This document shows, one piece after another, positions 15,567 through 34,702 of a stretch of DNA of 45,631 nucleotides. Both the position numbers and the translations under genes were made by a program. The stretch's first letter is position 1, and every line of letters starts with the position of its first letter. Origin of the DNA: a virus; IMG/VR virus record IMGVR_UViG_3300019742_000005, positions 1 to 45,631 of that record. One strand, 5' to 3'. A model generated the notes under the pieces. The model had not been told where the DNA came from. It was given only the letters and a program-made list of their open reading frames with translations, and made no database searches.

Positions 15567-16349
15567 ATGAAATATATGGGAAGCAAGAGTAGGATAGCTA
15601 AATATCTTATTCCTATAATTACAAAAGATTTAAAAGAAGACCAATACTATGTTGAGCCTTTTGTAGGTGGATGTAATATGATTGATAAAATTGACCATCC
15701 TCTTAGAATAGGTGCTGATTTTAATGAATATTTAATAGCTATGTGGAAAGAATTGCAAAATGGTTGGATTCCTCCTGAGTTTATTGAGAGAGATTTTTAT
15801 TCAAAATGTAGAGATAAATATAATCAAGGTGTGTATAAAAATGAAGAAAAACATATTATTGGATATGTTGGCTTCAATGGTTCTTACGGTGGTAGATTTT
15901 TTGATGGAGGTTATGCAGGTAAATCAATGACCAAAAGTAATAAAGAAAGAAATTATCCTTTAGAATCATATAATAATATAACTAAACAATTACATAAGAT
16001 AAGAGATATTAAGTTCTTATATAGTAGTTATAATACATTAAATATACCCTCTAATTCTATTATCTATTGTGATATTCCTTATAAAAATTCAAAGGAGTAT
16101 AAGAGTTCTAAAGGTTTTAATCACGAGGATTTCTACAATTGGGCAAGAGAAATGGTAAAGCAAGGTCATAAAGTTTTTATTAGTGAGTATTATATGCCTG
16201 ATGATTTTGTATGTATATGGGAAAAGGAAGTTAGTTCTAGTTTATCTGCAAACGGTAAGCAAGGTGGTAATAAAAAATCAACTGAAAAACTCTTTATCCA
16301 TAAATCACAATATAAAGAACCAAACGAAATAAACCTAAACGAATTTTAA
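15567..16349 (+). CDS. D12-class N6-adenine DNA methyltransferase (Dam-like), DIPY variant, LNEF tail
   Basis: Transfers a methyl group from SAM to adenine N6 in DNA. The N-terminal MKYMGSKSRIAKY and the SAM motif I VEPFVGGCN (29-37) are typical of D12/Dam-type enzymes. Motif IV is CDIPY (Asp169-Ile-Pro-Tyr172) instead of the usual DPPY; Asp, Pro and Tyr are kept, so activity is plausible. The last residues are EINLNEF, the variant form of the LDEF tail shared with six other methyltransferases here. The gene follows the capsid-like gene by 23 nt and lacks a clear promoter of its own. No restriction enzyme is adjacent. Confidence 0.9.
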   Translation: MKYMGSKSRIAKYLIPIITKDLKEDQYYVEPFVGGCNMIDKIDHPLRIGADFNEYLIAMWKELQNGWIPPEFIERDFYSKCRDKYNQGVYKNEEKHIIGYVGFNGSYGGRFFDGGYAGKSMTKSNKERNYPLESYNNITKQLHKIRDIKFLYSSYNTLNIPSNSIIYCDIPYKNSKEYKSSKGFNHEDFYNWAREMVKQGHKVFISEYYMPDDFVCIWEKEVSSSLSANGKQGGNKKSTEKLFIHKSQYKEPNEINLNEF

Positions 16350-16363
16350 AAAAGGAATAAAAA

Positions 16364-16717
16364 ATGATAGACACTGCTACAATGATGGCAACAATACCAT
16401 TCTTTAAACTTATTGACACCAAAGCCGATAAGTTTTTTGATGATATTAAAACCTCACAAAAAGAACCAAAAACTCTTCAAGATTTAACAATAATTAATGA
16501 TGATTTAATGAAATTAATCAGAGAGATTGTTGATGATTTAAATAAAGAAGAGAAAATTCAACAACAAGCCAAAACTATAGTTCAATCAAGATTTATTTTG
16601 GATATTTTCAAAGAGGTTTCTGATAAATATAATCTAAATTTTGAATCTATTTTTGATTATCTTGAACCTGATGCTAGAAAACTATTCAAAAAAGCTTCAC
16701 AAAATATTATACATTGA
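16364..16717 (+). CDS. Hypothetical helical protein (117 aa)
   Basis: Unrecognised, almost wholly helical and charged. It lies between a methyltransferase and the gp32 region. T4 has small regulators (gp33, dsbA, gp59) near gene 32, but I see no motif that identifies this protein with any of them. Confidence 0.72.
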   Translation: MIDTATMMATIPFFKLIDTKADKFFDDIKTSQKEPKTLQDLTIINDDLMKLIREIVDDLNKEEKIQQQAKTIVQSRFILDIFKEVSDKYNLNFESIFDYLEPDARKLFKKASQNIIH

Positions 16718-16727
16718 AAGGAAATAG

Positions 16728-17192
16728 GTGTTCAAAGATTATATACTAACGGACGAAATAACTCAAAAAGGTTCTATAGAACCTGCAAATATATCCATTA
16801 TGATTAAAAATATGACAGAATTTTCAGATTATCAAAAGTATGGACATACTGTGCTATTACATAAACAAGCTTATATGATTCCAAGCTATATCAAAGAGAT
16901 TATAGAAAGAAATACATTTACTAATTTAGAAAATCTTATGCCTATTGAGTATCTAATGGATATTGTGGGAAATAGTTATAATTATATAGAAAATAAGTTT
17001 AGTATTGTTAAAATCCCTAGGGTTAAAAAAAGATTTATTAAAATAATAGATAAGGAGTTGAATGATGTAATGTTTAATGAGAGATTAGTTAAAACAACTG
17101 TGAAAGCTAAGGAAATGATGGAATTAATAGATAATGAACTTATAGAAGATTATATGCAAATTTCTGAATCAAAATATTTGGTTTGGTATTAA
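16728..17192 (+). CDS. Hypothetical protein (154 aa), GTG start
   Basis: Unrecognised. The start is GTG 16728, placed 4 nt after an AAAGGAAATAG site. The protein is largely helical, with a basic patch (IPRVKKRFIKIIDKEL). Its position just upstream of the gp32 operon suggests a replication or late-transcription role, but nothing in the sequence proves it. Confidence 0.72.
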   Translation: MFKDYILTDEITQKGSIEPANISIMIKNMTEFSDYQKYGHTVLLHKQAYMIPSYIKEIIERNTFTNLENLMPIEYLMDIVGNSYNYIENKFSIVKIPRVKKRFIKIIDKELNDVMFNERLVKTTVKAKEMMELIDNELIEDYMQISESKYLVWY

Positions 17193-17211
17193 AATAAAAG
17201 GAGAATAAAAG

Positions 17212-17604: not shown

Positions 17605-17627
17605 ATAAAATTTCTATAAAATACAAT
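17601..17627 (+). promoter_or_regulatory. Possible promoter for gp32-like gene
   Basis: TACAAT at 17622-17627 after an A/T-rich stretch, followed by an A-rich leader to the 17674 start. T4 gene 32 is autoregulated through its leader; I see no clear pseudoknot here. Confidence 0.4.
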
Positions 17628-17673
17628 ATGAATTTAAAGAATTCAAAAACTAAAACAAATTAAAAGGTACTAT

Positions 17674-18732
17674 ATGAACACAAACACACTAGATACACTA
17701 GACTTCGGCGATGACTTAAACTTCGATGTAATTGAGACAAAATTAGGAGTTACACAACAAGAAAAAAAGAATTATGTAGATGAAAGATTTTGGAAACTTT
17801 CAATGAATGAAAATAAAGTGGGTAATGCTATTATCCAACTACTTCCGACAATGGAAATTGATGAGAATGGTAAGTTTGAAGTTTCTACAAATGCTTCTAT
17901 TCTAACCTATGAAAATTGGAATGCTTATGATGATGTTACTAAGAAAAAAAGACCTTTTACTTGTACATCACCATCTACAATTGGATTACCTTGCCCTGTT
18001 AATGACCTTAGAAATGCTATTTACGCACAAGATACTACAGAATCACAAGACGAAGCTAAGTTATGGTGGCCTAAGACTACATACATTACAAATATTAAAG
18101 TAATTAAAGACCCTGCTAATCCTCAGAATGAAGGTAAAATCTTCTTATGGAAGCATAAAAAAGAAATTGCTGATATTATCAATGAAGCTACTAATCCTGA
18201 CCAATCTTTAATTGATATGGGTGAATTACCTAAAAAGATGTACAATCCTTTAAGAGGTGATACAGCAGAAGACCAAGGTGTAAATGGTATTAATTATAGT
18301 TATTATATTAGATTGAATCTTTCGGGTTCACCTATTCCTAGTTATAAAAATACTAAAATAGAAAGAGCTAAATCTTCTTATAAATCATCCGATGAGGTTA
18401 AACATGAACTTCAAAATAATTGTTATTCACTAAAAGAGTTTCTACTTCCTGAAAATATTGAGTCTTATGAAGAAATTCAAAAAAGACTTACTTGGATGTT
18501 AGCTAAATATAAATCTAAAACAATGTCAGAAAGTACATTTAATGCTGTTGTTGATGAATTATTTGGAGTTAATAAGGTAGCTAAAGTAGAGACTCCCGCT
18601 GTACAAGCTGAACAAATTAATCCTAGTCCTATTGAAGATGTTAGTACTCCTTTTGAAGAACCTACACCTAAGGCACAAGTTGAAGAAAAACCAGCTGACG
18701 ATATGGATTTAGGTTTTTTAGATGATATTTAG
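17674..18732 (+). CDS. 32: T4 gp32-like single-stranded DNA-binding protein
   Basis: Binds and protects ssDNA at the fork and recruits replication partners. The 352-aa protein has DERFWKLSMNENKVG near residue 36, where gp32 has its conserved 'FWKL' segment. YITNIKVIKDPANP and NEGKIFLWKHKKEI match the gp32 core, and GINYSYYIRLNLSG follows. The tail is low-complexity and acidic (about 300-352), ending DMDLGFLDDI, as in gp32 where the acidic tail contacts partners. The zinc site looks degenerate. Of the T4 ligands His64, Cys77, Cys87 and Cys90, only two cysteines (Cys97, Cys107) align: CPVC reads CPVN here, and the histidine is not evident. It sits upstream of rnh, as in T4. Confidence 0.93.
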   Translation: MNTNTLDTLDFGDDLNFDVIETKLGVTQQEKKNYVDERFWKLSMNENKVGNAIIQLLPTMEIDENGKFEVSTNASILTYENWNAYDDVTKKKRPFTCTSPSTIGLPCPVNDLRNAIYAQDTTESQDEAKLWWPKTTYITNIKVIKDPANPQNEGKIFLWKHKKEIADIINEATNPDQSLIDMGELPKKMYNPLRGDTAEDQGVNGINYSYYIRLNLSGSPIPSYKNTKIERAKSSYKSSDEVKHELQNNCYSLKEFLLPENIESYEEIQKRLTWMLAKYKSKTMSESTFNAVVDELFGVNKVAKVETPAVQAEQINPSPIEDVSTPFEEPTPKAQVEEKPADDMDLGFLDDI

Positions 18733-18799
18733 AAACCCTAATTTAAGGAGCTAAAATCCCACAAATGATAACTATATTATGAGTATGAACAAAAATAAA

Positions 18800-18868: not shown

Positions 18869-18888
18869 CAAAAGCCAAAAGGAAATAA

Positions 18889-19161
18889 ATGAATAAAATT
18901 AAACTACCTAGACACAAAGCAAGTCTACAAATCACTCATAATCAACATAAAGACTTTTATGAAGATATTGAAGAATATATATCTAATTTAGCCCTATTGG
19001 ATGATGACCTTATGGATGATTATGGAGATATATTACAAAAATGTATAGATAATGATTCTATATGGGAAATGACTTGGTATCCTGATACACCTATAGGAAG
19101 TTACAAAACATTTAGTGATACTTTTGAGGGTTTATTTACTGAGGATATAGAATATGAATAA
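18889..19161 (+). CDS. Conserved T4-like phage protein of unknown function (90 aa)
   Basis: Small acidic protein. The order LQITHNQHKDFYEDIEEY, then KCIDNDSIWEMTWYPDTP, matches a hypothetical protein I recognise from T4-like phages (...HK.YYE..EEY...KCIE.DSIW...WYPDTPVG...). Its role is unknown. It precedes rnh and overlaps it by 8 nt, supporting a replication-linked function by association only. Confidence 0.8.
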   Translation: MNKIKLPRHKASLQITHNQHKDFYEDIEEYISNLALLDDDLMDDYGDILQKCIDNDSIWEMTWYPDTPIGSYKTFSDTFEGLFTEDIEYE

Positions 19162-20278
19162 AATAACAATCATAGACTTCTCTCACCTTTGTATGAGAAT
19201 GCTTCATATATCTGTATTAGAAACTACCCCAAAAGTTAAAGATGGATTATTTATAACAAAAGAATATGAATCATATCTTAAACACCTCATCTTTAACTCA
19301 ATCTCAATTATTAAAAGTAAATTAGAGGGTGAAATTGTTATAGCTATGGATTCAAAAGGAAATTGGCGTAAAGATATTTATCCTGATTATAAAGGTCAAA
19401 GAAAAAAAGTAAAAGACGATTCTAAAATTAATTTCAAAGATTTTTATGGAATTGTTAATGATATTTTGGAAGTTATGATTGAATCTTTTCCTTTTAAAGT
19501 TCTTAAAGTAGATAAAGCAGAGGCTGATGATATAGCAGGTGTAATAGCTCAAAGATTTGGAGATGAAATTGATATAACTCTTGTGACATCTGATAAAGAT
19601 TGGTTTCAAGTTATGGTAGAGAATCCAAAAGTAAAAGTTTACGACCCAATGAAAAGAGAATTTAAAAAATTAGATGAATTTGATTGTAAAATTTTAAATA
19701 CTAAATGGGGAGATATTTCAAGATTCACTCTTAGACACGCATTAAAAGGTGATACAGGAGATAATATCAAAAAAATCAATAAAGATACTGTATTTAGTCC
19801 TAAATTTTTAGGTTATCTTAAGGAAAATGATTGTAAAATCAAAGAAGTAAAGGACTTTAATAATTTTGAAAATAGAGGAATGTTATTAGAGAATTTTAAT
19901 ACCTTTAAAAAAGTAACAAGTGGTAAACTTAAAGGTAAAGATTCTGATATAAAAGATGTCTATAAAGATGTTAGATTAATGGGAGTTGAAAAGATTATAG
20001 AGGATGAAAATTCTTTAGAAACTTATATTAATTCTCACGAACTATATGAAGGGAGATTAGAATTAAATCTAAATCTAGTTGATTTTAATAGAATTCCTCA
20101 ATATTTAAAAGATAATATTGTAAAAGATTTTAAAGAAACTAAAGTAACATATAATCCTGAAAAGATAAAGGAATATTTTATAGATGAAGGATTAGCTGAT
20201 TTGGCAAGAAAAGCTAATAGTTTTTTTGATTCAAGATTTGAAATTGAGTATACAACTTATGATGATTTTGAGTTCTAG
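19154..20278 (+). CDS. rnh: T4-type RNase H (5'-3' exonuclease, FEN-1 family)
   Basis: Removes RNA primers and flaps from lagging-strand fragments. The 374-aa protein has the FEN-1/T4 RNase H acidic sites in order: IIDFSH (Asp8), AMDSKGNWRKDIYPDYKGQR, KAEADDIAG and VTSDKDWFQV, then LKGDTGDNI in the helix-hairpin-helix region. T4 RNase H is about 305 aa; this one is longer at the C-terminus, which ends acidic and aromatic (TTYDDFEF). That ending recalls, without matching, the LDEF tails of the methyltransferases. It lies downstream of gp32 in T4-like order, and repeat copy 4 follows. Confidence 0.92.
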   Translation: MNKITIIDFSHLCMRMLHISVLETTPKVKDGLFITKEYESYLKHLIFNSISIIKSKLEGEIVIAMDSKGNWRKDIYPDYKGQRKKVKDDSKINFKDFYGIVNDILEVMIESFPFKVLKVDKAEADDIAGVIAQRFGDEIDITLVTSDKDWFQVMVENPKVKVYDPMKREFKKLDEFDCKILNTKWGDISRFTLRHALKGDTGDNIKKINKDTVFSPKFLGYLKENDCKIKEVKDFNNFENRGMLLENFNTFKKVTSGKLKGKDSDIKDVYKDVRLMGVEKIIEDENSLETYINSHELYEGRLELNLNLVDFNRIPQYLKDNIVKDFKETKVTYNPEKIKEYFIDEGLADLARKANSFFDSRFEIEYTTYDDFEF

Positions 20279-20777: not shown

Positions 20778-21806
20778 ATGATTGAAGATATAGATAAAAG
20801 ATACTTTCTACAAGTATCACCAACACAAGATATAGGTTATATTAAACCAACAGATATTTCTAAATCTTGTGATATTTGTGGAGAGGGTAAATCTTATGGT
20901 AGAGAATATAGACTACATCTTTATATGAAATCTTCATACGAAATACCTGCTGTTAAATGTTTTAATTGTGGATACTCTTCTAATCTTTATGGATACCTTA
21001 AAGAAAATCATTCAAGTGAATTTATGAATTATATGAAAGAGAAAAGAGATGAGACTTTTAATGACCTAACAACTATTAAAGATTCATATAATGATTTAGA
21101 AATTTCAAAAGAAACTAAAGAAATTATAGAAATCCCTATAATCAAACAAAACACCCTATTAGAACCTTTTAATCTTATAGACCCTATACCTAACCTTAGT
21201 AAACTAAATGAAGCCTCTATAAGCTATTTAAAAGGTAGAGGATTAGAACCTAAAGATGATTGGTTATATGCAGAAAAAGGCACTAAATTTATGTTTAATG
21301 ATGTAGAAATATATCTAAATGATTATATAATAGTTCCTTTAACATATAAAAATAAATGGTATGGTTTTCAAGCTATTGGGTATATTGAGAAAAGATTTTT
21401 TGTATATTTATTAGATGGAAATGATGGTTATAAAGTTTGGAATTGGTTTAATATAAATCCAAATGAACCCGTATACATTTTTGAAAGTATTTACGATGCT
21501 ATGAGTTCAGGATTAGATAATGTTATAGCACAATTAGGAAGTTCTTTAGGAGAGGATAGACTAAAGGAACTTAAAGAACCTATATTTGTTTTAGATAATC
21601 ATAATATAGATGAAACAGCTAATAGAGAAACTTTGAATTACATAAAAGCCGGTTATAAAGTTTTTATATGGAGTACAAAGATACCTCTAAAATTTAAGGA
21701 TACAAATGATTTATTAAAAGCAGGGGTAAATATGGATAAAATAAAGAAGTTGATTCTTGGTAATATTTTTCAGGGATTTGAGGCTGAGGTTAGGTTGGGT
21801 TTATGA
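20778..21806 (+). CDS. 61: T4 gp61-like DNA primase
   Basis: Makes RNA primers for lagging-strand synthesis. The 342-aa length equals T4 gp61. An N-terminal zinc finger has Cys31-x2-Cys34 and Cys61-x2-Cys64 (CDICGEGKSYG, KCFNCGYSS). The TOPRIM core has YIFESIYDAMS (Glu236, Asp240) and FVLDNHNID (Asp273 to Asp278). NDYIIVPLTYKNKWYGFQ matches the gp61 segment before TOPRIM. The start ATG 20778 is poorly spaced from its AAAGG site, which instead serves a hexapeptide frame overlapping this ATG. The stop overlaps the next gene by 4 nt, so a methyltransferase is co-translated with primase. Confidence 0.92.
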   Translation: MIEDIDKRYFLQVSPTQDIGYIKPTDISKSCDICGEGKSYGREYRLHLYMKSSYEIPAVKCFNCGYSSNLYGYLKENHSSEFMNYMKEKRDETFNDLTTIKDSYNDLEISKETKEIIEIPIIKQNTLLEPFNLIDPIPNLSKLNEASISYLKGRGLEPKDDWLYAEKGTKFMFNDVEIYLNDYIIVPLTYKNKWYGFQAIGYIEKRFFVYLLDGNDGYKVWNWFNINPNEPVYIFESIYDAMSSGLDNVIAQLGSSLGEDRLKELKEPIFVLDNHNIDETANRETLNYIKAGYKVFIWSTKIPLKFKDTNDLLKAGVNMDKIKKLILGNIFQGFEAEVRLGL

Positions 21807-22621
21807 GTAATACATTTTTTAGATATTCAGGAACTAAGTTAAAATATACTAAACAAATAAATAGATATATTAATCAAAGTTCTAGTAATATTTATGTTGA
21901 GCCTTTTGTTGGTTCTGGTGCTGTTTTATTTAATCTTGAAAAAGAATTTAATGAGTATATTGTAAATGATATTGATAGAAACATTACAAGAATTTATAAA
22001 ACATTTAAGGAAATTAATTATAATGATTATTTAAAAGAGATTGAATTTATAGAGTCTAAATTTGGTTCTATAAAGGACTCAAAAGAGAGTTATTATAATT
22101 TTAGAAATTGGTTTAATGATGAATTTTGGAACACCAATACAACCAAAGAGGGTATATATTTACATTTTTTGGCTAACTCGTGTATCAATTCTTTTCTAAG
22201 ATTTAGTAAAAATGGTATGAATCAAAGTTATGGTAAAAGATTTTATAAATTAGATTTAGAATCTTTTGATAAAATTAAGAGTGTTCTAGGTAAAACTAAA
22301 ATATTTAATTTGAATTATAGAGATATATTTAAGAAATATCCAAATGCTTTATATTTTCTTGACCCTCCATACTTTAGTCAAAAATCATCATATTCGGGGT
22401 TTATATCCAATGATTTAATTGAGTTTTTGAAGTTAATAGAAGATAAAGAATATATTTATACTGATATTCTAAATGAGTTTAATAATTCTTTAGAAAATAG
22501 AGAATTAATTAGAGAGATGGTATCTACATCACCAAATAGAAAGATAGAAAAGAATGGAAATATAGAATATATTTTTAGTTCAATTATATTGGATGATGGG
22601 GATATTTTAGATGAATTTTAA
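21803..22621 (+). CDS. D12-class N6-adenine DNA methyltransferase (Dam-like), LDEF tail
   Basis: SAM-dependent adenine-N6 methyltransferase. FRYSGTKLKYTKQINRYI at the start and motif I VEPFVGSGAVLFN (about 33-45) are typical of D12 enzymes. Motif IV is FLDPPYFSQ, the canonical DPPY. The C-terminus ends DGDILDEF, the shared methyltransferase tail. It overlaps the primase stop by 4 nt and is followed by a C5 methyltransferase, so primase and three modification enzymes form one operon. The target sequence cannot be read from the protein; GATC-type specificity is only a possibility for this class. Confidence 0.93.
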   Translation: MSNTFFRYSGTKLKYTKQINRYINQSSSNIYVEPFVGSGAVLFNLEKEFNEYIVNDIDRNITRIYKTFKEINYNDYLKEIEFIESKFGSIKDSKESYYNFRNWFNDEFWNTNTTKEGIYLHFLANSCINSFLRFSKNGMNQSYGKRFYKLDLESFDKIKSVLGKTKIFNLNYRDIFKKYPNALYFLDPPYFSQKSSYSGFISNDLIEFLKLIEDKEYIYTDILNEFNNSLENRELIREMVSTSPNRKIEKNGNIEYIFSSIILDDGDILDEF

Positions 22622-22631
22622 AGGAGAGAAA

Positions 22632-23630
22632 ATGAAAAATAACAAACCAACTTTTGTTGATATATTTGCAGGTGCAGGTGGATTATCATGTGGATTAGAG
22701 ATGGCTGAATTTAAAGGTATATGTGCCTTAGAAATTAATGAATACGCTTGTGAAACATATAGTTCAAATTTTACTCACCCTATTATATGTGGAGATGTAA
22801 CAAAACAATCAATAAAGGATGAACTATATACTAATATAGAAAATTATTTTGGTTGTAATGATATTCAAGGTAAAGTTGATTTAATATCAGGGGGATTTCC
22901 ATGTCAGGGGTTCAGTATGTCAGGTAAAAGAGTTATAGAAGACCCTAGAAATTCACTATATAAAGAGCTTAAGGATATTGTAAATCACATTAAACCTAAA
23001 TTTATCCTTATGGAAAATGTTGTTGGGTTGAGGTCAATGTTAGGTGGGAAAGTAGAGGAGAAGATATTAGATGATTTTAGAGAAATTGGTTATAATATTG
23101 AAGTTAAAACACTAAATTCAGCTGATTATGGTGTCCCTCAAACAAGAAAAAGAGTGATATTTATAGGTAATAGAATAGGTGATGATATTATATATCCTAG
23201 AGCTTTATATTCAAAAGATGAATATAAAACGGTTAGAGACTCTATTGAAGATTTAATGGATAAAGATGAAACTTTTTGTGAAAATCATATCAAAACTAAA
23301 CACAAACCTCAAATGATAGAAAGATTAAAAGCTATTGAACCCGGTAAAAGTTTGTATAAAAATTATTCTGACGCTTGGAAGAAGATTGAATGGGATAAAC
23401 CGTCTTGTACAATTAAAGAAAACCATGGTGGAGTTAATGTTCACCCTGAATTAGGTCGTGTTATTACTCCTAGAGAAATGGCTAGACTTCAATCCTTTCC
23501 TGATGAATTTAAATTTAAAGGTGCTAAAAAGTGGCAACTTATACAACTTGGAAATGCAGTTCCTCCTTTAATGGCAAAAGCTATAGGGGAAGAAATTATA
23601 AAGAGTTTAGACTATGATTCAACTTTATAA
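22632..23630 (+). CDS. DNA cytosine-5 methyltransferase, without LDEF tail
   Basis: Methylates cytosine C5. All main motifs are present: I VDIFAGAGGLSCG, IV GGFPCQGFSMSG with catalytic Cys in PCQ, VI MENV, VIII QTRKRVIF, IX LARLQSFPDEF-type and X QLGNAVPP. At 332 aa it is a standard-length monospecific enzyme. I start it at ATG 22632, with AAGGAG just upstream; ATG 22611 lies inside the previous gene without a good site. It has no intein, unlike the other two C5 enzymes here. Its tail (SLDYDSTL) lacks the LDEF tag, and its end overlaps the next gene by 17 nt. Confidence 0.95.
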   Translation: MKNNKPTFVDIFAGAGGLSCGLEMAEFKGICALEINEYACETYSSNFTHPIICGDVTKQSIKDELYTNIENYFGCNDIQGKVDLISGGFPCQGFSMSGKRVIEDPRNSLYKELKDIVNHIKPKFILMENVVGLRSMLGGKVEEKILDDFREIGYNIEVKTLNSADYGVPQTRKRVIFIGNRIGDDIIYPRALYSKDEYKTVRDSIEDLMDKDETFCENHIKTKHKPQMIERLKAIEPGKSLYKNYSDAWKKIEWDKPSCTIKENHGGVNVHPELGRVITPREMARLQSFPDEFKFKGAKKWQLIQLGNAVPPLMAKAIGEEIIKSLDYDSTL

Positions 23631-24398: not shown

Positions 24399-24406
24399 TA
24401 TAAATA
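24399..24406 (+). promoter_or_regulatory. T4-type late promoter
   Basis: TATAAATA immediately after the preceding stop, 16 nt before the TTG start of the intein-containing C5 methyltransferase. Confidence 0.65.
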
Positions 24407-24422: not shown

Positions 24423-26735
24423 TTGCTATTCAAAGAAAACAAACTAAACAATATACTATCCCTATTTGACGGATTATCTTGTGGACAACTTGCTATAAAT
24501 CATTTAGGAATTGAATATAATAATTACTATGCTTCAGAAGTTGATAAATATGCTATGGCTGTTACAAATTATCGTTATCCAAATACAATACACTTAGGTG
24601 ATATAAAAAATATTATTCCTAAAGAACTTCCTGAAATTGATTTATTGATAGGTGGAAGTCCTTGTTTTGTAGCTGGAACTAAGGTTATATGTAAGAATAA
24701 AATTAAGAATATTGAAGATATAGAAATTGGTGATGAGGTTCTTACTCATAAAAATAGATACAGAAAAGTTTTAGCTATAGGTGGTGATGGTATAAAAGAA
24801 ATACACTCTCTTAAAGCTCATGGGATAGAAGATATTAAATGTACAGATAATCATCCATTTTTTGTAAGAGAATTTAATAAAGATAGTAGTTTTTCAGAAC
24901 CAAAAAAGGTTCAATTAAAAGACTTAAAAGAAAATATCCATTATCTAAAATTAGCAAATCCAAATAATACCTTAGAAATTCCTTTGAATTTAACTAAAAA
25001 TGATTATACTATTATAGACGACGAAATATGGCTACCTATAAGACAAATAAAACCTTTAGATTATTCTGAAAAAATCTATAATATAGAGGTAGAAGAAGAC
25101 CATACATATACAGCCAATAATGTAGTCACTTTTAATTGTCAATCATTCAGTTTCGCAGGTAAAAGAAACGGTATGACAACTAAAGAAGCCTTAGAAATCC
25201 TCTCATTAGAACACTACCTAGAACTAAAAGAACAAAACTTTGAATTTGAGGGTCAATCATATTTATTTTGGGAATATATGAGAATACTCAAAGCCACTAA
25301 ACCTAAATTCTTTCTATTAGAGAATGTAAAGATGACTCAAAAATGGCAAAAGGTTCTAACTGATGCTATTGGTGTTGAACCTATTCTTATTAATTCTGCT
25401 CTTGTTACGGCTCAAAATAGACAAAGATTATATTGGGTAGGTGAAAGACAAGAGGATGGAAAATATAAAGTTGTACCTATTGAACAACCAAAAGATAAAG
25501 GTATTATTCTTAGAGATATTTTAGATTATTCAATTGAAGATTTTTATCCAAAAGATAAAGAAATTACAAAAATAGATAATCATACCTCAAATGTAGGTAT
25601 TAAATGTGTAGCAGGATTTAAAGGTACAAAAAAATGGTTAGAGGATGGTAAAAATCTTCAAAGAAATTTTAGTCAAGGTGAGAGGATTTATTCAGAAGAT
25701 GGTAAAAGTATTACTCTAAGTTCTAATTCAGGTGGTACAGCAGGTAAAGGTTCAATGATTGTAGAGATTAAAGGAAATTGGAAACCTATATTTAAAAAGA
25801 ATTATTGTCAATGGGATTTAAATGGTAAAGGTAATGATTCACAAGACCAAAGAGCTTATTATATGGATGGAAAACACGGTACTATACCATCAAGCTCAAC
25901 TTCATCTAAATGTAAAGTTCTTATTGACGATATTCCAAAAGATATTAAAACTGGTGAATGTAAACTAAAAGAATATAATGAAAATTCGATATGCCATCAT
26001 ATAGCTGATGCAACTGATATTAAAGGTTTTGAATCAGTTAAGAGAGTATATTCCGAAACTGGTAAGTCACCTACTTTAACTTGTAATGGTGGAGGTAATA
26101 GAGAGGTTAAGGTTCTTATTGATGATACAATTCCATCTTTAGAAAATTGGTTAGGAACAAAAGAAGAATATTATGAATTATATCCTAAAATTCTTTGTGG
26201 AGCTTCAAGAGGTCGATATGTTGAGGGTGATAAAGGTGAAACTGAACAAATGCTTGAAATTAGACAAGATGAAAAGACTAATTGTATAACAACAGTCCAA
26301 AAGGATAATTATGTTACTTATGGTTTAGATAAAGGTGATAGAGTGCCATTGAAAGATATTAAAAATGAGTCCTGTACTAAAAATAATAAAGCCTATTGTT
26401 TAACTGCTAGATATGATGGGGCTGTTGCTTGGAACTCGTGCCAAAGAAAACAAAGAACTATGATACCTATTGAGGAAACTGATGAGATAAGCCCTAATGT
26501 ATATAATGGAGTTCGTTATAGAAAATTAACACCACTAGAAACAGAAAGATTACAAACGATGCCGGATGATTATTCTTTAGTACCTTATGGAGATAGAATG
26601 ATGAGTAATTCACAAAGATTCAAAATGATAGGAAATTCCTTCAGCAGAGATGTTATTAGTCATATTATTAGTTTTATGTTTGAGAAAAAGAAACCTAAAA
26701 GTTTAATTGAAGAGATTGATTTGGACGAGTTTTAA
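24423..26735 (+). CDS. Intein-containing, multi-module cytosine-5 DNA methyltransferase, LDEF tail
   Basis: C5 methyltransferase of the type with DNMT3-like motifs: I ILSLFDGLSCGQLA, IV GGSP|CQSFSFAG, VI LLENVKM, VIII SALVTAQNRQRLYW, X MIGNSFSRDV. An intein of 158 residues (81-238) separates the proline and cysteine of motif IV. Splicing would give a 612-aa enzyme and restore PCQ. Between motifs VIII and IX lie about four tandem similar segments (IYSEDGKSITLSSNSGG, RAYYMDGKHGTIPSSS, RVYSETGKSPTLTCNGG, AYCLTARYDGA). They resemble repeated target-recognition modules, so several target sequences are possible. The start is TTG 24423 after AAAAGGA. The C-terminus is EEIDLDEF. Confidence 0.93.
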   Translation: MLFKENKLNNILSLFDGLSCGQLAINHLGIEYNNYYASEVDKYAMAVTNYRYPNTIHLGDIKNIIPKELPEIDLLIGGSPCFVAGTKVICKNKIKNIEDIEIGDEVLTHKNRYRKVLAIGGDGIKEIHSLKAHGIEDIKCTDNHPFFVREFNKDSSFSEPKKVQLKDLKENIHYLKLANPNNTLEIPLNLTKNDYTIIDDEIWLPIRQIKPLDYSEKIYNIEVEEDHTYTANNVVTFNCQSFSFAGKRNGMTTKEALEILSLEHYLELKEQNFEFEGQSYLFWEYMRILKATKPKFFLLENVKMTQKWQKVLTDAIGVEPILINSALVTAQNRQRLYWVGERQEDGKYKVVPIEQPKDKGIILRDILDYSIEDFYPKDKEITKIDNHTSNVGIKCVAGFKGTKKWLEDGKNLQRNFSQGERIYSEDGKSITLSSNSGGTAGKGSMIVEIKGNWKPIFKKNYCQWDLNGKGNDSQDQRAYYMDGKHGTIPSSSTSSKCKVLIDDIPKDIKTGECKLKEYNENSICHHIADATDIKGFESVKRVYSETGKSPTLTCNGGGNREVKVLIDDTIPSLENWLGTKEEYYELYPKILCGASRGRYVEGDKGETEQMLEIRQDEKTNCITTVQKDNYVTYGLDKGDRVPLKDIKNESCTKNNKAYCLTARYDGAVAWNSCQRKQRTMIPIEETDEISPNVYNGVRYRKLTPLETERLQTMPDDYSLVPYGDRMMSNSQRFKMIGNSFSRDVISHIISFMFEKKKPKSLIEEIDLDEF
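24663..25136 (+). other. Mini-intein in C5 methyltransferase (158 aa)
   Basis: Begins CFVAGTKVICKNK (block A, Cys1) and has a block B-type TDNHPFF (His in TxxH). The end shows EKIYNIEVEEDHTYTANN (block F) and VVTFN followed by Cys (block G). No LAGLIDADG or HNH endonuclease is present. The penultimate residue is Phe rather than the usual His; terminal Asn and +1 Cys are intact. The +1 Cys is the methyltransferase's catalytic cysteine. Confidence 0.92.
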
Positions 26736-26970: not shown

Positions 26971-29739
26971 ATGAAGGATATTGATGTAAAAATCAAAGAG
27001 GATAGACCAAAGATACAAGATTGTTATAGTTTAAGTGTTGGTGTGAACCCATTTAAAAGAAAATGTGGGATTATTAGATTTGAAACATTTAAGGAACTCA
27101 TAGATAAATTAGAAGGAGCTAAAAAACCAATACCTGCTAGTAAATCAAATAAGTTTATGAATAATTGGATTTCAGGTGATTTAGTAAAACCAAAAAATAA
27201 TTATATGTATTTCAAACAAGATAATTTTATAGTCAATGGTAGATTAGTAATACTTGATATTGATGATGGATTAAGTATAGAACAAGCTATATCAATATTA
27301 TCTATTGAAAAACTTAATTACTATCTATATAATTCAACCAATAATGGTAAATTTGGTAAAGAAAAATACAGAATCATTATACCATTAAATGAATCTATAA
27401 CAGATTTCAAAAGACTGACTACTTTATATAAGTCAATGAATGAGATGTTTAATGGAAAATTAGATAAATCTTGTCTTCATGTATGTAGAATTTATTATAA
27501 ACCTGAAAATTGGACGCCTCATATTGATAATAAAACTCCCATAACTGTTTCTCTTTGGAATATTGATAAAAATGATTTAGATGTGGACGCAACAATAGAA
27601 AGATTTAAAGATATGATTCCCATTGAAATCCCTAAAACTGCTATTAGGACAGGTGAAACACTTAACCCTTTGAATAAATTTCAATTGGCAAAGAATGGAG
27701 TTCAAATATCAGAAGATTCAAGAGATTCACTATCAAACATATTAGTTAATTCATTTGATTATATGTATTCTAAAAGTAGAAGAAATAAGCTAGTAAGATT
27801 GGCTGTTAATTTACTCCATGCTGGTAACAGTTTAGATGGAGTTGTTTACTATATGAATAAATCTAATTATTTTGAAAAACACACAGATAGACATCCTAAA
27901 CAATTTTTAGATATTGCATTTGATATATTTCAAAATGAGGGTTCGTCCATTTGGCACACAGTTACAAAAAAATATAAAGAGGATATAGATATGAAAGTAA
28001 AATCACATAAAGAGATATTTAATAAGAGTATTCATTTAGAGGAGGGTAAAATTTCTAACTTGAAAGAATTTAAGGATAATGATATATTCCCAAATGGTCA
28101 AGTATCATTATTAAGTTCACCAACAAATTCAGGTAAAACATTCTTTGTATTAAATGATTATAAAGATAGATTACCAGAAAATGAATGTGTTGTTTTAATA
28201 GTTCCTTTTGTAAACCTTAGGGATGAGTTAGAAAATTATGGAGCTTACATATATAGAAGTCAAGAAACTTTTAATTATCAAGAAGCAAAGAAAGCCAAAG
28301 CTATTGTAGTAGTATATAATTCAGGTGTAGACGCTATTTTATCTATGTGTGGTTCAAATTGTCATGTATTTATTGATGAAGCTCATAACTTCTACAGTTC
28401 TTTTTCTTATAGATTCTTTGCGTTAAATGAATTGTTTCATTTTAATATAACCAATAAAGAAAACATTAAAAAAGTTGTTTTAATGAGTGGTACATATAAT
28501 AGTTCTTATTATAAAAATGATTTTATTGATAATAAAATAGAGGTTACATCTAATAGAGAATCTAAGAATATTCAAATTATAGATACAAAAGATACATACG
28601 GTGTTCTTCTAAAAAATATAGAAAATTCAAAAGGTTCAAAACAAATTATATTTATCAACCACAAAATTAAAGGTTCTCTTATTAAAGACAAATTAAAAGA
28701 GATAAATATAAGTTCGATGCTGTATAATGCAGATACAAAAGAAAGTAAAGAAGTTCTATATTTAACTAAGAATAATAAAATACCTAATAATGTAGATATA
28801 GTTATAATGACTCAAAGTGGAGTAGAGGGTATATCTATTTTAGATGAAGTAAAGAATATACATATTTTAGGATTTTTAGGTACTGATGAAATAGAACAAT
28901 TAAGTAATAGACCTAGAAGAAATTCGGCAGATGTATTTATGTATATAGATTTATTACCGAGCTATGATAGTTTAACAAAAGATATAAACTTAGAAACTAA
29001 AGAAGAAACAAGACTAGAAGAGATGACTGATTATATGCTTTATGGTATAAATAATAATCAAATTCCTCATTCAAAAGAGGATGAAAGAAGAAATGTACAT
29101 ATTACAAGAGATTTAAGTAATGGTATCTTTTATAAAACACCCTTATTAATGGCTTCTTATAAGTACCAAGATGATTTAAATATAGAAAAGGGTAACTTAA
29201 ATATAATGTATTTTGGAGAGCTTTTAAAGGTTAAATATAGATTTAATGTATCTTTTATAAGAGAAACTTCAAAGGCGTCTAAATCTTTAAATTTTACAAG
29301 AGAAGAAAAGATTAAGTATGATTTAAACAGATTTAATAAAGAGGAGTCAAAAGATATAGAATTAGTTAAAAGATTAATAAAACAAGGTAAATTAACAAAT
29401 GAGGATGTTTATAAAACAATAGATATATGTCCAACTAATAAAGACCCTTTTAAAATGATATTAGATACACATTTATATAAGAACAATAAAATAGAAAATG
29501 ATTTTATTAAAAGTAAATATGTAATTGGAGAACTTTATACTAATGAACAAATTAAAATTAAATTTAAGGAGTATGTAGATTATAAAAATGAGTATAATAT
29601 AGAATCAAGAAAAGAGAAATTTAGTATAAATAACTATAAGAGATTGGTTAAATACTTGTTTAAAACAGAAATTAAAAGAGTATGGAACAAAGATAGAACT
29701 AAACTTAATACTCTTTTATATATAGAAAATATTATATAG
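26971..29739 (+). CDS. Primase-like / SF2 helicase fusion protein (922 aa)
   Basis: Large replication protein. The N-terminal 240 residues resemble archaeo-eukaryotic-type primase or plasmid-replication domains: VILDIDDG near 96-101 and KEKYRIIIPL near 130-138 are spaced like their catalytic segments. From about residue 375 an SF2 helicase core follows. It has Walker A SPTNSGKT (about 382-389), Walker B VFIDEAHNF (about 466), motif III VLMSGTY (about 503), IIFINHK (motif IV) and QLSNRPRRN (motif VI, about 641). This order is like viral replication-origin-binding helicases. The C-terminal 200 residues are charged and unassigned. The phage also has a gp61-type primase, so this is a second priming or origin system or acts on another substrate. 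The 5' leader holds an inverted repeat. Confidence 0.78.
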   Translation: MKDIDVKIKEDRPKIQDCYSLSVGVNPFKRKCGIIRFETFKELIDKLEGAKKPIPASKSNKFMNNWISGDLVKPKNNYMYFKQDNFIVNGRLVILDIDDGLSIEQAISILSIEKLNYYLYNSTNNGKFGKEKYRIIIPLNESITDFKRLTTLYKSMNEMFNGKLDKSCLHVCRIYYKPENWTPHIDNKTPITVSLWNIDKNDLDVDATIERFKDMIPIEIPKTAIRTGETLNPLNKFQLAKNGVQISEDSRDSLSNILVNSFDYMYSKSRRNKLVRLAVNLLHAGNSLDGVVYYMNKSNYFEKHTDRHPKQFLDIAFDIFQNEGSSIWHTVTKKYKEDIDMKVKSHKEIFNKSIHLEEGKISNLKEFKDNDIFPNGQVSLLSSPTNSGKTFFVLNDYKDRLPENECVVLIVPFVNLRDELENYGAYIYRSQETFNYQEAKKAKAIVVVYNSGVDAILSMCGSNCHVFIDEAHNFYSSFSYRFFALNELFHFNITNKENIKKVVLMSGTYNSSYYKNDFIDNKIEVTSNRESKNIQIIDTKDTYGVLLKNIENSKGSKQIIFINHKIKGSLIKDKLKEINISSMLYNADTKESKEVLYLTKNNKIPNNVDIVIMTQSGVEGISILDEVKNIHILGFLGTDEIEQLSNRPRRNSADVFMYIDLLPSYDSLTKDINLETKEETRLEEMTDYMLYGINNNQIPHSKEDERRNVHITRDLSNGIFYKTPLLMASYKYQDDLNIEKGNLNIMYFGELLKVKYRFNVSFIRETSKASKSLNFTREEKIKYDLNRFNKEESKDIELVKRLIKQGKLTNEDVYKTIDICPTNKDPFKMILDTHLYKNNKIENDFIKSKYVIGELYTNEQIKIKFKEYVDYKNEYNIESRKEKFSINNYKRLVKYLFKTEIKRVWNKDRTKLNTLLYIENII

Positions 29740-29884: not shown

Positions 29885-30202
29885 ATGAGACTAAAAAGAA
29901 AAGAAATAGTTAAATCAATCGCAACAGAAGAACTAGACTTAATTATCAAAAAATCCCAATTATCAAGAGCAATTCACCTCAAAGAAAAATATAAAATAAA
30001 CGACAGATTTATTGTGAGTATAATCCATTTAGAGGAAAAACTAGATAAACTTTATGAGCTAGAATGGGAAGATGATTATTTAACTGGTTGGATACAAGAA
30101 TTAGAAACAGGTATTGAATTTACTAAACAAAATATGATGGTAGAGGGTGTAGTATTATATGATGGTAGGTTTGATGATTGGAAATGGGAAGTAGAGGATT
30201 AA
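29885..30202 (+). CDS. Hypothetical protein (105 aa)
   Basis: Unrecognised, charged helical N-terminal half and acidic, tryptophan-containing end (FDDWKWEVED). It is behind a late promoter, and its stop shares one base with the start of the following methyltransferase (TAATG), so the two are coupled. It may be a partner of that enzyme, but this rests on position only. Confidence 0.75.
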   Translation: MRLKRKEIVKSIATEELDLIIKKSQLSRAIHLKEKYKINDRFIVSIIHLEEKLDKLYELEWEDDYLTGWIQELETGIEFTKQNMMVEGVVLYDGRFDDWKWEVED

Positions 30203-30966
30203 TGATTGATTTATATAATGGTGATTGTTTGGAAATTATGGATAAATTAATTGAAAAGAATATTAAGGTTGATTCTATAATTACAGATATTCCTTATGGA
30301 ACTACAAATTGCTCTTGGGATTCAATTATTCCTTTTGATGAGATGTGGTTAAGATTAAATAAATTGATTAAACCTAATGGAGCTATTGTATTGTTTGGAA
30401 GTGAGCCTTTTAGTTCTGCTTTAAGAATGAGTAATATTGATGATTATAAATATGATTGGAAATGGAATAAAAAACAAGGTGGTAATCCATTAAACTCAAA
30501 AATACAACCTTTAAAAATACATGAAGATATAATGATTTTTAATAAACACAATTATAATCCAATTATGAGAGTTGGCAAAATGAGAACAAAGGGAGGTGTA
30601 AATAAACAACCTCTTCAAGTAGGTGATATAGATGTAACATATCCTTCATATAAAAATAATCTATACTTTCCAACTTCAATATTAGAAATCACAAATGCTG
30701 ATAGAACTAATAGAGTACATCCAACACAAAAGCCAATTAAATTAATGGAATATTTAATCAAAACCTATACAAATGAAAATGAAACTATCCTAGATTTTAC
30801 TATGGGAAGTGGTTCAACTTTGGTAGCTTGTAAAAATTTAAATAGAAAAGGTATAGGAATTGAGTTAGATAAAGGTTATTTTAAAATAGCTCAAAAGAGA
30901 GTTAATGAAGCTATAAAAGGCTCTAGTTTAGAAATATTAGAAGATATTAACTTAGACGAGTTCTAA
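30202..30966 (+). CDS. Beta-class amino DNA methyltransferase, DIPY variant, LDEF tail
   Basis: Paralogue of the 23614 enzyme. Motif IV here is TDIPYGTTNCSWD (Asp29-Ile-Pro-Tyr32), where the sister has DPPY. Motif I FTMGSGSTLVACK and HPTQKP are intact. The first 85 and last 80 residues are largely shared with the sister, but the middle (about 90-165) is unrelated, as expected for a different target sequence. I start it at ATG 30202, which overlaps the upstream stop and follows AGAGGA; ATG 30178 lies inside the upstream gene. It ends EDINLDEF. A late promoter starts 2 nt after the stop. Confidence 0.92.
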   Translation: MIDLYNGDCLEIMDKLIEKNIKVDSIITDIPYGTTNCSWDSIIPFDEMWLRLNKLIKPNGAIVLFGSEPFSSALRMSNIDDYKYDWKWNKKQGGNPLNSKIQPLKIHEDIMIFNKHNYNPIMRVGKMRTKGGVNKQPLQVGDIDVTYPSYKNNLYFPTSILEITNADRTNRVHPTQKPIKLMEYLIKTYTNENETILDFTMGSGSTLVACKNLNRKGIGIELDKGYFKIAQKRVNEAIKGSSLEILEDINLDEF

Positions 30967-30976: not shown

Positions 30977-30994
30977 ATCAAAAAGGAACTAAAA

Positions 30995-31399: not shown

Positions 31400-31421
31400 A
31401 TTAAATAAAAAAAGGAAATAA

Positions 31422-32426
31422 ATGATTAAATCAAAATTAGGAATACCTTATATGGGTTCTAAAAGAAGTCTAGCTAAACCAATATTAGATTTTATAATAG
31501 AACAAAATCCAAATGCTAAGTATTTCTATGACCTTTTTGGAGGTGGTGGTTCTATGAGTTTTGAAGCTCTTCAAAGAAAACAGTTCAAAGAAGTATATTA
31601 TAATGAATTAAATACATCTATAGTTAGTCTACTTAATAAAATAAAAGAAGATGGTGTAACAGATGAGTTTTATGAGTGGGTTAGTAGAGAGGATTTTAAA
31701 GAATATAAGAATGATAGTGATTGGAAATCGGGACTTATTCAAACTTGTTGGAGTTTTGGTTCTAATCAAAAAGGTTATCTATATGGTATTCCTAAAGAAA
31801 ATAATAAAAGATTGATGCACAATATAATTGTTAATAGATGTATTAAATCATTAAATATTATAAATGGTAAATATAATTTAAGTATAGAATTAGGCTCAAT
31901 GGATGAAAGTATTAATAATAGAAGGTTAAGAGTACAAAGTTCCATATTTGATATGTTAGATGATGATAATATAGAAGGTGTTGGGAGTTTTATGATTGTT
32001 AAAAATAGTACAAGAAATGTTAGTCAACACCTACAAAATATAGATAAATTGAAGAAAATAGAAAATCTATATAATTTAAAGAACCTAGAGATTTCAAATC
32101 AATCTGCTTTTGATGTAAAAATAAATACTCCAATAGAAGAAACTATAATTTACCTTGACCCTCCATATATAAAAACTGGACAATATAAAGAAAAATTAAA
32201 TCATGATGAATTATACGAGTATATAGAAAATAGTCCATATAAAATCTACATGAGTTCTTACGAAAGCCATTTACCATCTGTATTTCAAATCAATCATAGA
32301 AGTACATTGTCAGCTAAGAATAACAACAAAAAAGTAGTTGAAAAGCTTTTTACTAACACTAAACCTATATTAAATAATTCATCATATAACTATTATTTAG
32401 ATTGTGATATATTAGATGAATTCTAA
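31422..32426 (+). CDS. D12-class N6-adenine DNA methyltransferase, LDEF tail
   Basis: Third Dam/D12-type enzyme. LGIPYMGSKRSLAKPI at the start, SAM motif I FYDLFGGGGSMSFEAL (about 35-50), and motif IV IIYLDPPYIKTGQY with canonical DPPY. At 334 aa it is longer than the other two D12 enzymes; the extra length lies in the recognition region between motifs I and IV. It ends DCDILDEF, like the 21803 enzyme (DGDILDEF) although the bodies differ. AAAAAAAGGA precedes the start. A late promoter begins at its stop. Confidence 0.93.
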   Translation: MIKSKLGIPYMGSKRSLAKPILDFIIEQNPNAKYFYDLFGGGGSMSFEALQRKQFKEVYYNELNTSIVSLLNKIKEDGVTDEFYEWVSREDFKEYKNDSDWKSGLIQTCWSFGSNQKGYLYGIPKENNKRLMHNIIVNRCIKSLNIINGKYNLSIELGSMDESINNRRLRVQSSIFDMLDDDNIEGVGSFMIVKNSTRNVSQHLQNIDKLKKIENLYNLKNLEISNQSAFDVKINTPIEETIIYLDPPYIKTGQYKEKLNHDELYEYIENSPYKIYMSSYESHLPSVFQINHRSTLSAKNNNKKVVEKLFTNTKPILNNSSYNYYLDCDILDEF

Positions 32427-32428
32427 AA

Positions 32429-32436
32429 TATAAATA
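32429..32436 (+). promoter_or_regulatory. T4-type late promoter
   Basis: TATAAATA right after the preceding stop, 16 nt before the intein-containing C5 methyltransferase. The usual AAAAAGGA site reads AAAAATGA here, so translation may be weak. Confidence 0.6.
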
Positions 32437-32452
32437 AACAAAAATGAAATAA

Positions 32453-34702
32453 ATGAATTTTAAATGGAGTATTAAAGAATTAGATAATATACCTAGACAA
32501 GATATAAAGGTATTTAGCTGTTTCAGTGGAGGTGGAGGGAGTTCACTCGGATATAAATTAAATGGTTACAATGTTTTAGGTAATATAGAAATAGATAAAA
32601 AACAAAACAAAAACTATATAGCTAATCTAAACCCTAAATATAATTATAATATGGACATTAGAGATGTTGTTAAAATGGCTAAGAATAAAGAACTACCTAA
32701 TGAATTATATGAGTTGGATATACTTGACGGAAGTCCACCTTGTTTTGATGGTGATACCCATGTTCTTACCGATAAGGGATATACTAAAATAAAAGATATA
32801 TGTGTTGGTAACAATGTTATTACTCATACTAATACATATAAAAAGGTATTATCCACAATGAACAAAAAAGCTACCGACTATTATGAACTTAAAATTCAAG
32901 GTTCGGAGTTATTAAAGGTTACAAAAGAACATCCTTTTTATGTTAGAACAATGACAAGAAAATATAATAAAGAGTTTAAAAAGGATACAAGATTTTTTAG
33001 TGAGCCATATTGGAAGTCTGTGGAGGCTTTAACAATAACAAAAAATTCTTGCAATTCAATATTATCACAAGACTATGTTGGGGTAGCTATTAACCAAGAA
33101 AGTAGATTACCTGTTTGGGAAGGAGTCACCTATCTTCATCCAACACAAGGTAAAATGGTGAAACTAAAGAAACAAGATATTGATTTTACACAAAAAAGTT
33201 TTTGGTATTTAGTTGGTAGATATTTAGGTGATGGTTGGTTGAGGATGAATGAATATGAAACAAAGAAAAAGAATAGGTATGAAGTCTATATATGTACAGG
33301 AAAACATGAGAAGGATTTATTTATAAAAGAAATGGATAAAAATCAATTCAAATATAATATGTATGAGGAGAGAACCACTTATAGATTTGTAATAAGCTCC
33401 AAAGAATTGACCATATACCTTTCACAATTTGGTAAAGGTGCTGAGGGTAAAAAACTTACATCTGATATAGTAGACCTACCTATAGATTTACAAAAGGAGT
33501 TTTTAAGGGGATATTTAGATGCAGACGGTCATTTTGATAAAAATAAAAATAAACAAACAGTGGTTAGTATATCCAAAGTACTCATATTAGGTATACAGCA
33601 ATGTATATATAAATCGTATAAAGTACCTACTACATTTATGACTAGAGTACCTTTTAAAGAACAACATTATATAGAAGGTAGACCTGTTAATCAAAATATT
33701 TCATACTCAATAGCATTTAATTATAAAACAACAAAACAACAACATAGTTTTTATGAAGATGGGTATATTTGGACACCATATAGAAAAAAAGAACTTATAT
33801 ATAAGGAACTTGATGTATATAATATAAGTGTTGAAAAAGATGAAAGTTATACAGTTAATAACCTAATATGTCATAATTGTTCTACATTTTCAATGTCGGG
33901 TCTTAGAGGAAAGATGTGGGGTAAAGAAAAGAAGTTCAGAGAGGGTCAAAAAGAACAAACATTAGATGATTTATTTTTTATCTTTGGTGATTTATTAAAT
34001 GAACTGAAACCTAAAATAGTAATAGGTGAAAATGTAAAAGGTATAATTCAGGGTTCGGCTAAAGAGAACTATGCAGAACCAATAATTGAAATGTATCAAA
34101 AGATGGGATATAGAGCTAAGTATTTTGTTATAAATTCAAAAAATACAAATGTACCTCAATCAAGAACTAGGGTATTTTTTATAGGTGTAAGAAATGATAT
34201 TTGCACACAAGATGAATTTAATGAGTTAGATAATCTGTTAGTTTTTGATGAGAAAGAAATACCTTTCAGTGAGGTTTCAAAAGTAGCTGATATAAATGAA
34301 AGTGAACTAAAAGAGATAACTAAAGGAACACAACAAAGGTATTTTTGGGATAATAAAATAGATACTGATAGGACTTTTGCTGATACCAATAAAAGAATCT
34401 ATAATAAAAGTAGTAATTTTGGTGATGTTATTATACATAATGATATTCCTTTTCCAACATTAAGGGCAAGTGGTTCATATATGTACCATCATAAACCTTT
34501 TCATATATCTAAAGAGGAATTAATACTTATTCAATCATTTCCTTATGATTATAATTTTATACCAAATACAAATGGAAATGTTCATTATATATTAGGAATG
34601 TCAGTACCTCCATTAATGACTAAAGCTATATCAAATGTTTTAGTGGAATACTTTATAAAAAAGACCATTAAAGTAGATATTATAGATTTAGATGAATTCT
34701 AA
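32453..34702 (+). CDS. Intein-containing cytosine-5 DNA methyltransferase, LDEF tail
   Basis: C5 methyltransferase with motif I VFSCFSGGGGSSLGY, motif IV DGSPP|CSTFSMSG, VI GENVKG, VIII VPQSRTRVFFIG, IX IQSFPYDYNF and X ILGMSVPP. A 379-residue intein (97-475) sits between the second proline and catalytic cysteine. After splicing the enzyme is about 370 aa, a normal length. The motif reads PPCS, not the common PCQ. It is not closely similar to the 24423 enzyme outside motifs, so the same insertion site in both is notable. It ends IIDLDEF. The ribosome binding site is unusually poor. Confidence 0.93.
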   Translation: MNFKWSIKELDNIPRQDIKVFSCFSGGGGSSLGYKLNGYNVLGNIEIDKKQNKNYIANLNPKYNYNMDIRDVVKMAKNKELPNELYELDILDGSPPCFDGDTHVLTDKGYTKIKDICVGNNVITHTNTYKKVLSTMNKKATDYYELKIQGSELLKVTKEHPFYVRTMTRKYNKEFKKDTRFFSEPYWKSVEALTITKNSCNSILSQDYVGVAINQESRLPVWEGVTYLHPTQGKMVKLKKQDIDFTQKSFWYLVGRYLGDGWLRMNEYETKKKNRYEVYICTGKHEKDLFIKEMDKNQFKYNMYEERTTYRFVISSKELTIYLSQFGKGAEGKKLTSDIVDLPIDLQKEFLRGYLDADGHFDKNKNKQTVVSISKVLILGIQQCIYKSYKVPTTFMTRVPFKEQHYIEGRPVNQNISYSIAFNYKTTKQQHSFYEDGYIWTPYRKKELIYKELDVYNISVEKDESYTVNNLICHNCSTFSMSGLRGKMWGKEKKFREGQKEQTLDDLFFIFGDLLNELKPKIVIGENVKGIIQGSAKENYAEPIIEMYQKMGYRAKYFVINSKNTNVPQSRTRVFFIGVRNDICTQDEFNELDNLLVFDEKEIPFSEVSKVADINESELKEITKGTQQRYFWDNKIDTDRTFADTNKRIYNKSSNFGDVIIHNDIPFPTLRASGSYMYHHKPFHISKEELILIQSFPYDYNFIPNTNGNVHYILGMSVPPLMTKAISNVLVEYFIKKTIKVDIIDLDEF
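32741..33877 (+). other. Full-length intein with LAGLIDADG endonuclease (379 aa)
   Basis: Begins CFDGDTHVLTDKGYTKI (block A), block B-type TKEHPFYV, and ends YNISVEKDESYTVNN, LICHN followed by Cys (blocks F and G, His-Asn-Cys intact). The middle has two LAGLIDADG motifs: WYLVGRYLGDGWLR and LRGYLDADGHFDK. The acidic residues needed for cleavage are present, so the intein may still home. The +1 Cys is the methyltransferase nucleophile. Confidence 0.94.

Follow-up and report, generated by a model that had tools for sequence, protein, structure and literature searches.

A common LDEF C-terminus on seven DNA methyltransferases of a T4-like phage: a probable sliding-clamp docking tail

Introduction

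In bacteriophage T4, the hydrophobic and acidic C-termini of the polymerase gp43 and of the late-transcription factors gp55 and gp33 bind the sliding clamp gp45 and are interchangeable, and the epitope of gp55 is placed after a highly divergent linker (PMC2988020). The hydrophobic pocket of the RB69 clamp (structure 1b8h) consists of Tyr39, Ile107, Phe109, Trp199 and Val217, while the basic residues Arg32 and Lys204 contact the acidic groups (PMC3012046). The T4 alpha-glucosyltransferase also co-purifies with gp45, setting a precedent for clamp-tethered DNA modification (PMC13216743). The present analysis concerns a C-terminal tetrapeptide, Leu-Asp-Glu-Phe (LDEF), shared by seven DNA methyltransferases encoded in IMG/VR record IMGVR_UViG_3300019742_000005, the entire length of which (45,631 bases) is referred to here as the window.

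LDEF is likely to be the core of a C-terminal clamp-docking epitope of the gp43/gp55/gp33 type, which would recruit the methyltransferases to gp45 behind the replication fork. In common with the T4 epitope, which resembles the PCNA-interacting peptide (PIP) box, it has an extreme C-terminal position, hydrophobic and acidic residues, an L-[DE]-x-aromatic core and a divergent linker. It differs in being carried by methyltransferases rather than by polymerase or late-transcription factors and in stopping at Phe, and its docking is predicted. The alpha-glucosyltransferase offers a similar case, in which a T4 phage enzyme that modifies DNA is tethered to the clamp, as is putatively so here; however, its C-terminus (KEQFDIITK) contains no such motif, whereas the short motif described here is common to three methyltransferase families. 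The interaction of that enzyme with gp45 was reportedly described by Sommer in 2004, and PMC13216743 confirms it. In eukaryotes, the maintenance methyltransferase DNMT1 is recruited to PCNA by a PIP box, and the phage tails would act alike, through replication-coupled methylation by clamp recruitment. The enzyme context is nevertheless unrelated and the Qxxhxxaa pattern is absent, as the seven tails have no Gln at position 1 and no two adjacent aromatic residues. Like the bacterial clamp-binding consensus, Q-phi-x-[LM]-[FL] (PMC11139829), LDEF is a short C-terminal linear motif, but it has no Gln, would serve another clamp and does not fit the QLxLF form in any of the seven tails. No report of clamp-binding motifs on phage methyltransferases was found in the incomplete literature collection searched.

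A common tail on three methyltransferase families

Eight proteins of the window have a Pfam DNA methyltransferase domain above the gathering score, and seven of them end in the tag: three D12 enzymes, two beta-class N6/N4 enzymes and two intein-bearing C5 enzymes. The seven C-termini listed in the original prediction are exact, and Pfam confirms the families assigned there. The description of these families as unrelated folds was wrong, as D12, N6_N4 and C5 enzymes are all S-adenosylmethionine-dependent methyltransferases of different families. At the DNA level, the pattern L[DN]EF-stop has exactly seven matches on both strands of the window, all of them the ends of these genes, where 0.13 matches are expected and none of 100 shuffles reached seven. 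The tag is found on 0 of the 56 other genes; residue composition predicts 0.004 tags among all 64 genes, and the probability that seven tags would all fall on the eight methyltransferases is 1.3e-8. Six synonymous spellings are found among the seven DNA sites, indicating conservation of the peptide instead of a copied block of DNA, and DNA-level copying of the tag was rejected on these grounds. The occurrence of LDEF on unrelated proteins, named in advance as evidence against a specific tag, was seen neither in the window nor in the T4-like contig G001. Elsewhere it ends 2 of 5190 other open reading frames (ORFs), both encoding T4-type RNase H, so that LDEF as a frequent chance ending was also rejected.

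The eight genes, named here by their start positions, lie on the plus strand. Among the D12-class adenine methyltransferases, 15567 (15567–16349; Pfam MethyltransfD12, E=1.7e-13) ends in NEINLNEF and has the one variant tag of the seven, LNEF, which with its stop codon occupies 16335–16349 (DNA site CTAAACGAATTTTAA). The second D12 enzyme, 21803 (21803–22621; E=7.8e-26), ends in DDGDILDEF (tag and stop 22607–22621) and is 43% identical to a homolog in Vibrio phage Va1 with the C-terminus PNDEW. The third, 31422 (31422–32426; E=2.2e-15), ends in DCDILDEF (32412–32426), and its alignment with the best phage homologs stops at about residue 312 of 334. The beta-class enzymes are 23614 (23614–24396; Pfam N6_N4_Mtase, E=3e-31; tail IKEDNLDEF, tag and stop 24382–24396) and 30202 (30202–30966; E=3.7e-31; tail LEDINLDEF, 30952–30966), the latter numbered from its first ATG, as the mechanical ORF begins at TTG 30178. 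In both tagged C5 enzymes, an intein interrupts the PC motif precisely at its catalytic cysteine, and protein splicing should therefore be required for their activity. In 24423 (24423–26735; Pfam DNA_methylase, 4.3e-35, with Intein_splicing/Hint; tail EEIDLDEF, 26721–26735) this is a mini-intein at about residues 81–238 with junctions GGSP-CFVAGTK...VVTFN-CQSF. In 32453 (32453–34702; DNA_methylase, 2.5e-35, with LAGLIDADG_3 and Intein_splicing; tail DIIDLDEF, 34688–34702) it is a LAGLIDADG intein at about residues 96–475 with junctions GSPP-CFDGDTH...LICHN-CSTF. The untagged enzyme is the C5 cytosine methyltransferase 22611 (22611–23630; DNA_methylase, E=1.1e-75), which ends in EIIKSLDYDSTL (C-terminus SLDYDSTL) and overlaps the start of 23614 with its 3' end.

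The three D12 enzymes and the C5 enzymes are mutually remote, with about 27–30% identity or, inteins aside, no match. The two beta-class enzymes are paralogs with 64% identity, so that the seven tags do not represent seven independent events.

Comparison of the tails and domains (INDEPENDENCE) places the tag at the extreme C-terminus in all seven enzymes, and the linker sequence differs in each. In an AlphaFold2 model of 30202, the domain ends at a helix spanning residues 224–239, and residues 242–251 have a predicted local distance difference test score (pLDDT) below 50. In the model of 21803, residues 267–272, the tag itself, are also below 50, and the domains of both enzymes are better modelled. 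The tails lie beyond the catalytic domain, and in both enzymes modelled the tail is predicted to be disordered. Furthermore, about 80 beta-class homologs of 30202 from other phages (50–68% identity) terminate where the common domain ends or shortly beyond it, without LDEF, except for two in contig G001/L006.

Resemblance to polymerase tails

The tag resembles the ends of gp43 polymerases. In T4, gp43 ends in ASLDFLFG and gp55 in SLDFLYEAND, while in Campylobacter phage NCTC12673 the two end in TLDEWL and ELDIWEN. Other gp43 ends are TLEEW in CP220, SLDDW in Va1, and NLEDFMI and SLEDFFG in IMG/VR contigs. Of 50 different gp43 tails, the majority taken from IMG/VR contigs, most have the form [STN]L[DE]x[FWL], and one subgroup has a shifted FDxLF form. 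A position-specific scoring matrix (PSSM) of five residues was built from 31 distinct gp43 motifs, with the lineage of the window excluded. The seven tagged methyltransferases all rank in the top 8 of the 64 window genes (P=1.0e-7), with 23614 in joint first place (score 10.5) and the untagged 22611 scoring 2.8. The sole other protein in the top 8 is the T4-type RNase H/5'-3' exonuclease at 19154–20278 on the plus strand (phrog_107 exonuclease, 1e-42; tail TTYDDFEF; PSSM 7.5). RNase H proteins elsewhere end in SSSLDDFF (the ortholog in contig L003) and ISLFDDWM (NCTC12673).

In non-T4 contigs, 0.4% of ORFs score at least 6. Besides gp43, the matrix mostly selects gp41-like helicases (KKSFEGFKF), RNase H and methyltransferases, which supports its specificity. 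The last 20 residues of T4 gp41 are needed for its stimulation by the clamp and clamp loader (PMC3012046). The KKSFEGFKF ending is found on gp41-like helicases of contigs L104, L108 and L126 and of other T4-like contigs.

Related tails in other phages

Contig G001, a further AT-rich fragment of T4-like type, has gp44, gp41 and gp43 and encodes three beta-class methyltransferases ending in DLDEF, NLDEF and SFDEF. For a wider comparison, an unbiased subset of loci retrieved only through gp43 or RNase H homology was used. A score of 7 or more is reached there by 2 of 12 methyltransferases but by 17 of 1901 other ORFs (P=0.006), about 13 of these ORFs resembling gp41 helicase or RNase H. A broader methyltransferase comparison was left aside, as it includes loci fetched for their tagged-like methyltransferases and its "other contigs" apparently hold repeats of G001 (L083–L085).

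Several modification enzymes of other T4-like phages have similar ends. In L136, a D12 enzyme ending in TLEDFLY adjoins gp43 (TLEAFFM), and in L294 a methyltransferase-like protein (weak PHROG match to DNA methyltransferase) ends in SLESFFD, with SLEDFFS on its own gp43. In L209, a C5 enzyme ending in NLDKFFNS lies next to a T4-type beta-glucosyltransferase (12240–13412), which itself has a polymerase-like tail, NDLTQFFT. Dam of the RB43/RB16 type ends in TLDDLM, and the corresponding ends are NLEDFM in contigs L282/L283, TIEDFM in Phynn and TLNDLM in GAP161. A DprA-like protein near the RB43-type Dam gene (L277, 352–933; L283, 372–953) ends in TLDFLW or TLDMFL and is a possible further clamp client. 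The D12 relatives in L284, L285, L287, L288 and L306 stop directly at the domain end.

Late promoters

A T4-type late promoter, TATAAATA, lies at 24399–24406 on the plus strand, 24 nt upstream of 24423, and equivalent sites precede 14638, 29885, 30995, 32453 and 34731 (positions 14611, 29859, 30969, 32429 and 34705, for example). Among plus-strand genes, 10 of 58 have TATAAATA 20–35 nt upstream of the start codon, at a spacing of 24–27 nt in nine and 31 nt in the tenth, compared to a mean of 0.45 and a maximum of 3 in shifted controls. Among these genes are 24423 and 32453, as well as the one immediately preceding 30202. The pattern fits T4-type late transcription. In T4, late transcription requires gp55 and the gp45 clamp.

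Probable clamp docking and the alternatives

Taken as the core of a clamp-docking epitope, the tag could work as follows. An acidic, disordered short linker would hold Leu-Asp-Glu-Phe-COOH clear of the catalytic domain, so that Leu and the terminal Phe could fit the hydrophobic pocket of a gp45-like clamp while the acidic residues face its basic residues. Several methyltransferases with different recognition sequences would be parked on clamps, which are loaded only at replicating DNA, and the new strand would be methylated behind the fork, ahead of host restriction enzymes. From the sequences, we infer gp45 binding, timing behind the fork and a protective purpose, and the phage probably methylates its own DNA directly behind its replication machine.

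A number of observations weigh against clamp docking or limit its reach. Among the tags, the weakest fits to the gp43 matrix are the forms ILDEF (6.6) and NLNEF (5.8, rank 8 of 64 for 15567). The polymerase motif usually runs one to three residues past F, while LDEF stops there, as do the gp43 proteins of Va1 and CP220 at their aromatic residue. In G001, gp43 ends in LIDDEEW, which is similar yet not LDEF, and a permutation comparing methyltransferase tails with the gp43 tail of their own phage against those of other phages gave P of about 0.06. When considered as tag carriers, T4 Dam and the three methyltransferases of NCTC12673 were negative, and most D12 enzymes of other (cyanophage-like) T4-like contigs have no such tail either. 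Neither gp43 nor gp45 of the phage itself is on the 45.6-kb contig. Additionally, the ratio of alpha to beta glucosylation in T4 is mostly set by expression and enzyme activity and not by clamp binding, indicating that the biological gain from a tether may be modest (PMC13216743).

The original prediction had allowed for gp32 or another hub as the docking partner. An acidic tail ending in Phe-COOH could mimic the tail of bacterial single-stranded-DNA-binding protein (SSB) and dock on gp32 or on an SSB-tail-binding protein of the replisome. The contact of T4 RNase H with gp32 is made by the C-terminal domain of RNase H (PMC3012046), [IL][DN]EF closes many RNase H proteins of the T4 type, and gp32-like proteins have acidic hydrophobic tails of their own. 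The gp32-like protein of the window (17674–18732, plus strand; phrog_224, 3.5e-42) ends in MDLGFLDDI, not LDEF, and that of L003 in ALDFLDDL. However, the tag agrees with gp43 tails position by position, and the seven tails have no Pro and hence no Pro-Phe of the SSB type. Moreover, the DEF ends of RNase H directly follow a conserved helix-like segment (NYFIEKKLKNL), whereas the methyltransferase tails are appended, and another replisome partner is considered unlikely.

A stability or degradation signal, or a packaging or sorting tag common to late-expressed modification enzymes, is less probable again. It would account for the extreme C-terminal position, for the presence of the tag on neighbouring genes and for the late promoters upstream of several of them, but genes 30995, 34731, 35818 and 37792 share such promoters and have no tag, and in other phages similar tails occur on polymerase, helicase and RNase H as well as on modification enzymes. 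Least probable, and already disfavoured, is that recombination or gene conversion among the clustered genes spread functionless 3' ends. In its favour, the genes lie close together and two are close paralogs, yet the six codon spellings, the unrelated upstream sequences and the different families all speak against it, as do the intact tags on three beta-class enzymes of G001 and the related tails in remote phages. Clamp docking thus remains the better supported part of the original prediction, given the fit to the gp43 motif, the SLDDW, TLEEW and TLDEWL gp43 tails of the nearest cultured relatives and the recurrence of such tails on T4-like modification enzymes; its gp32 and stability or sorting options are less supported.

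If docking occurs, modification would be built into the replisome, as with DNMT1 in animals. Protection of new DNA by phage methylases before restriction is usually explained by enzyme abundance. The tail would offer a handle of four residues for deletion or transfer, also through Dam in phages of the RB43 type, which can be cultured, and sequence alone could flag replisome-linked proteins in T4-like phages.

A possible parallel with bacterial clamps

In non-T4 phages, beta-class methyltransferase homologs frequently have QLKLF, QSQLKIF, YKLF or a similar sequence at the position equivalent to the tag. The terminal pattern [LFYIV][KRSDTNE][LI]F, defined post hoc, is found in 10 of 66 methyltransferases and 0 of 1073 other ORFs, figures that are inflated by relatedness. 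The slightly widened clamp consensus near the end is found in 6 of 66 and 9 of 1073, respectively (P=1e-4, inflated in the same way). This suggests, at the level of sequence, that beta-class enzymes of other phages may dock on the host beta-clamp. Enzymes with the ends QLKLF, QSQLKIF or QLEMF are encoded in L007 (9995–10720), L031 (9995–10723), L049 (5783–6547) and L038 (8606–9319).

A broader proposal, offered tentatively, is that phage enzymes that modify DNA rely in general on clamp docking for fork-coupled counter-restriction, with the motif matched to the replicating clamp. Unrelated methyltransferases, and a glucosyltransferase, would repeatedly have gained a short C-terminal clamp motif. 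Tails of the gp43-like LDEF, LEDF or LDDL form would go with a gp45 of the phage's own in T4-like phages and QLKLF-like tails with the host beta-clamp, and seven enzymes would share one clamp in the present phage.

Genome context

The record is probably a genome fragment. Its T4-type genes encode a gp23-like capsid protein, the gp32-like SSB, the RNase H/exonuclease, a primase and a terminase, and by gp32 and terminase the closest cultured relatives are Vibrio phage Va1 and Campylobacter phages. Viral scans with the single proteins gp32 and terminase returned zero or one relative. Among relatives, G001 has the clamp loader gp44 together with gp43, and NCTC12673 has an annotated gp45. A PDB family search with the NCTC12673 clamp gave no meaningful match, while the T4 gp45 sequence retrieved 1czd, 1b77 and 1b8h.

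The two methyltransferase clusters are separated by a 922-residue protein (26971–29739) with a helicase/primase-type look and only a weak PHROG match. The region of the terminase large subunit (38921–44123) is split into a fragment (38921–39700), an HNH/homing endonuclease (39703–41283) and a main terminase ORF of 947 residues. In the related terminases of Campylobacter phages, too, there is a Hint domain or an endonuclease associated with an intron.

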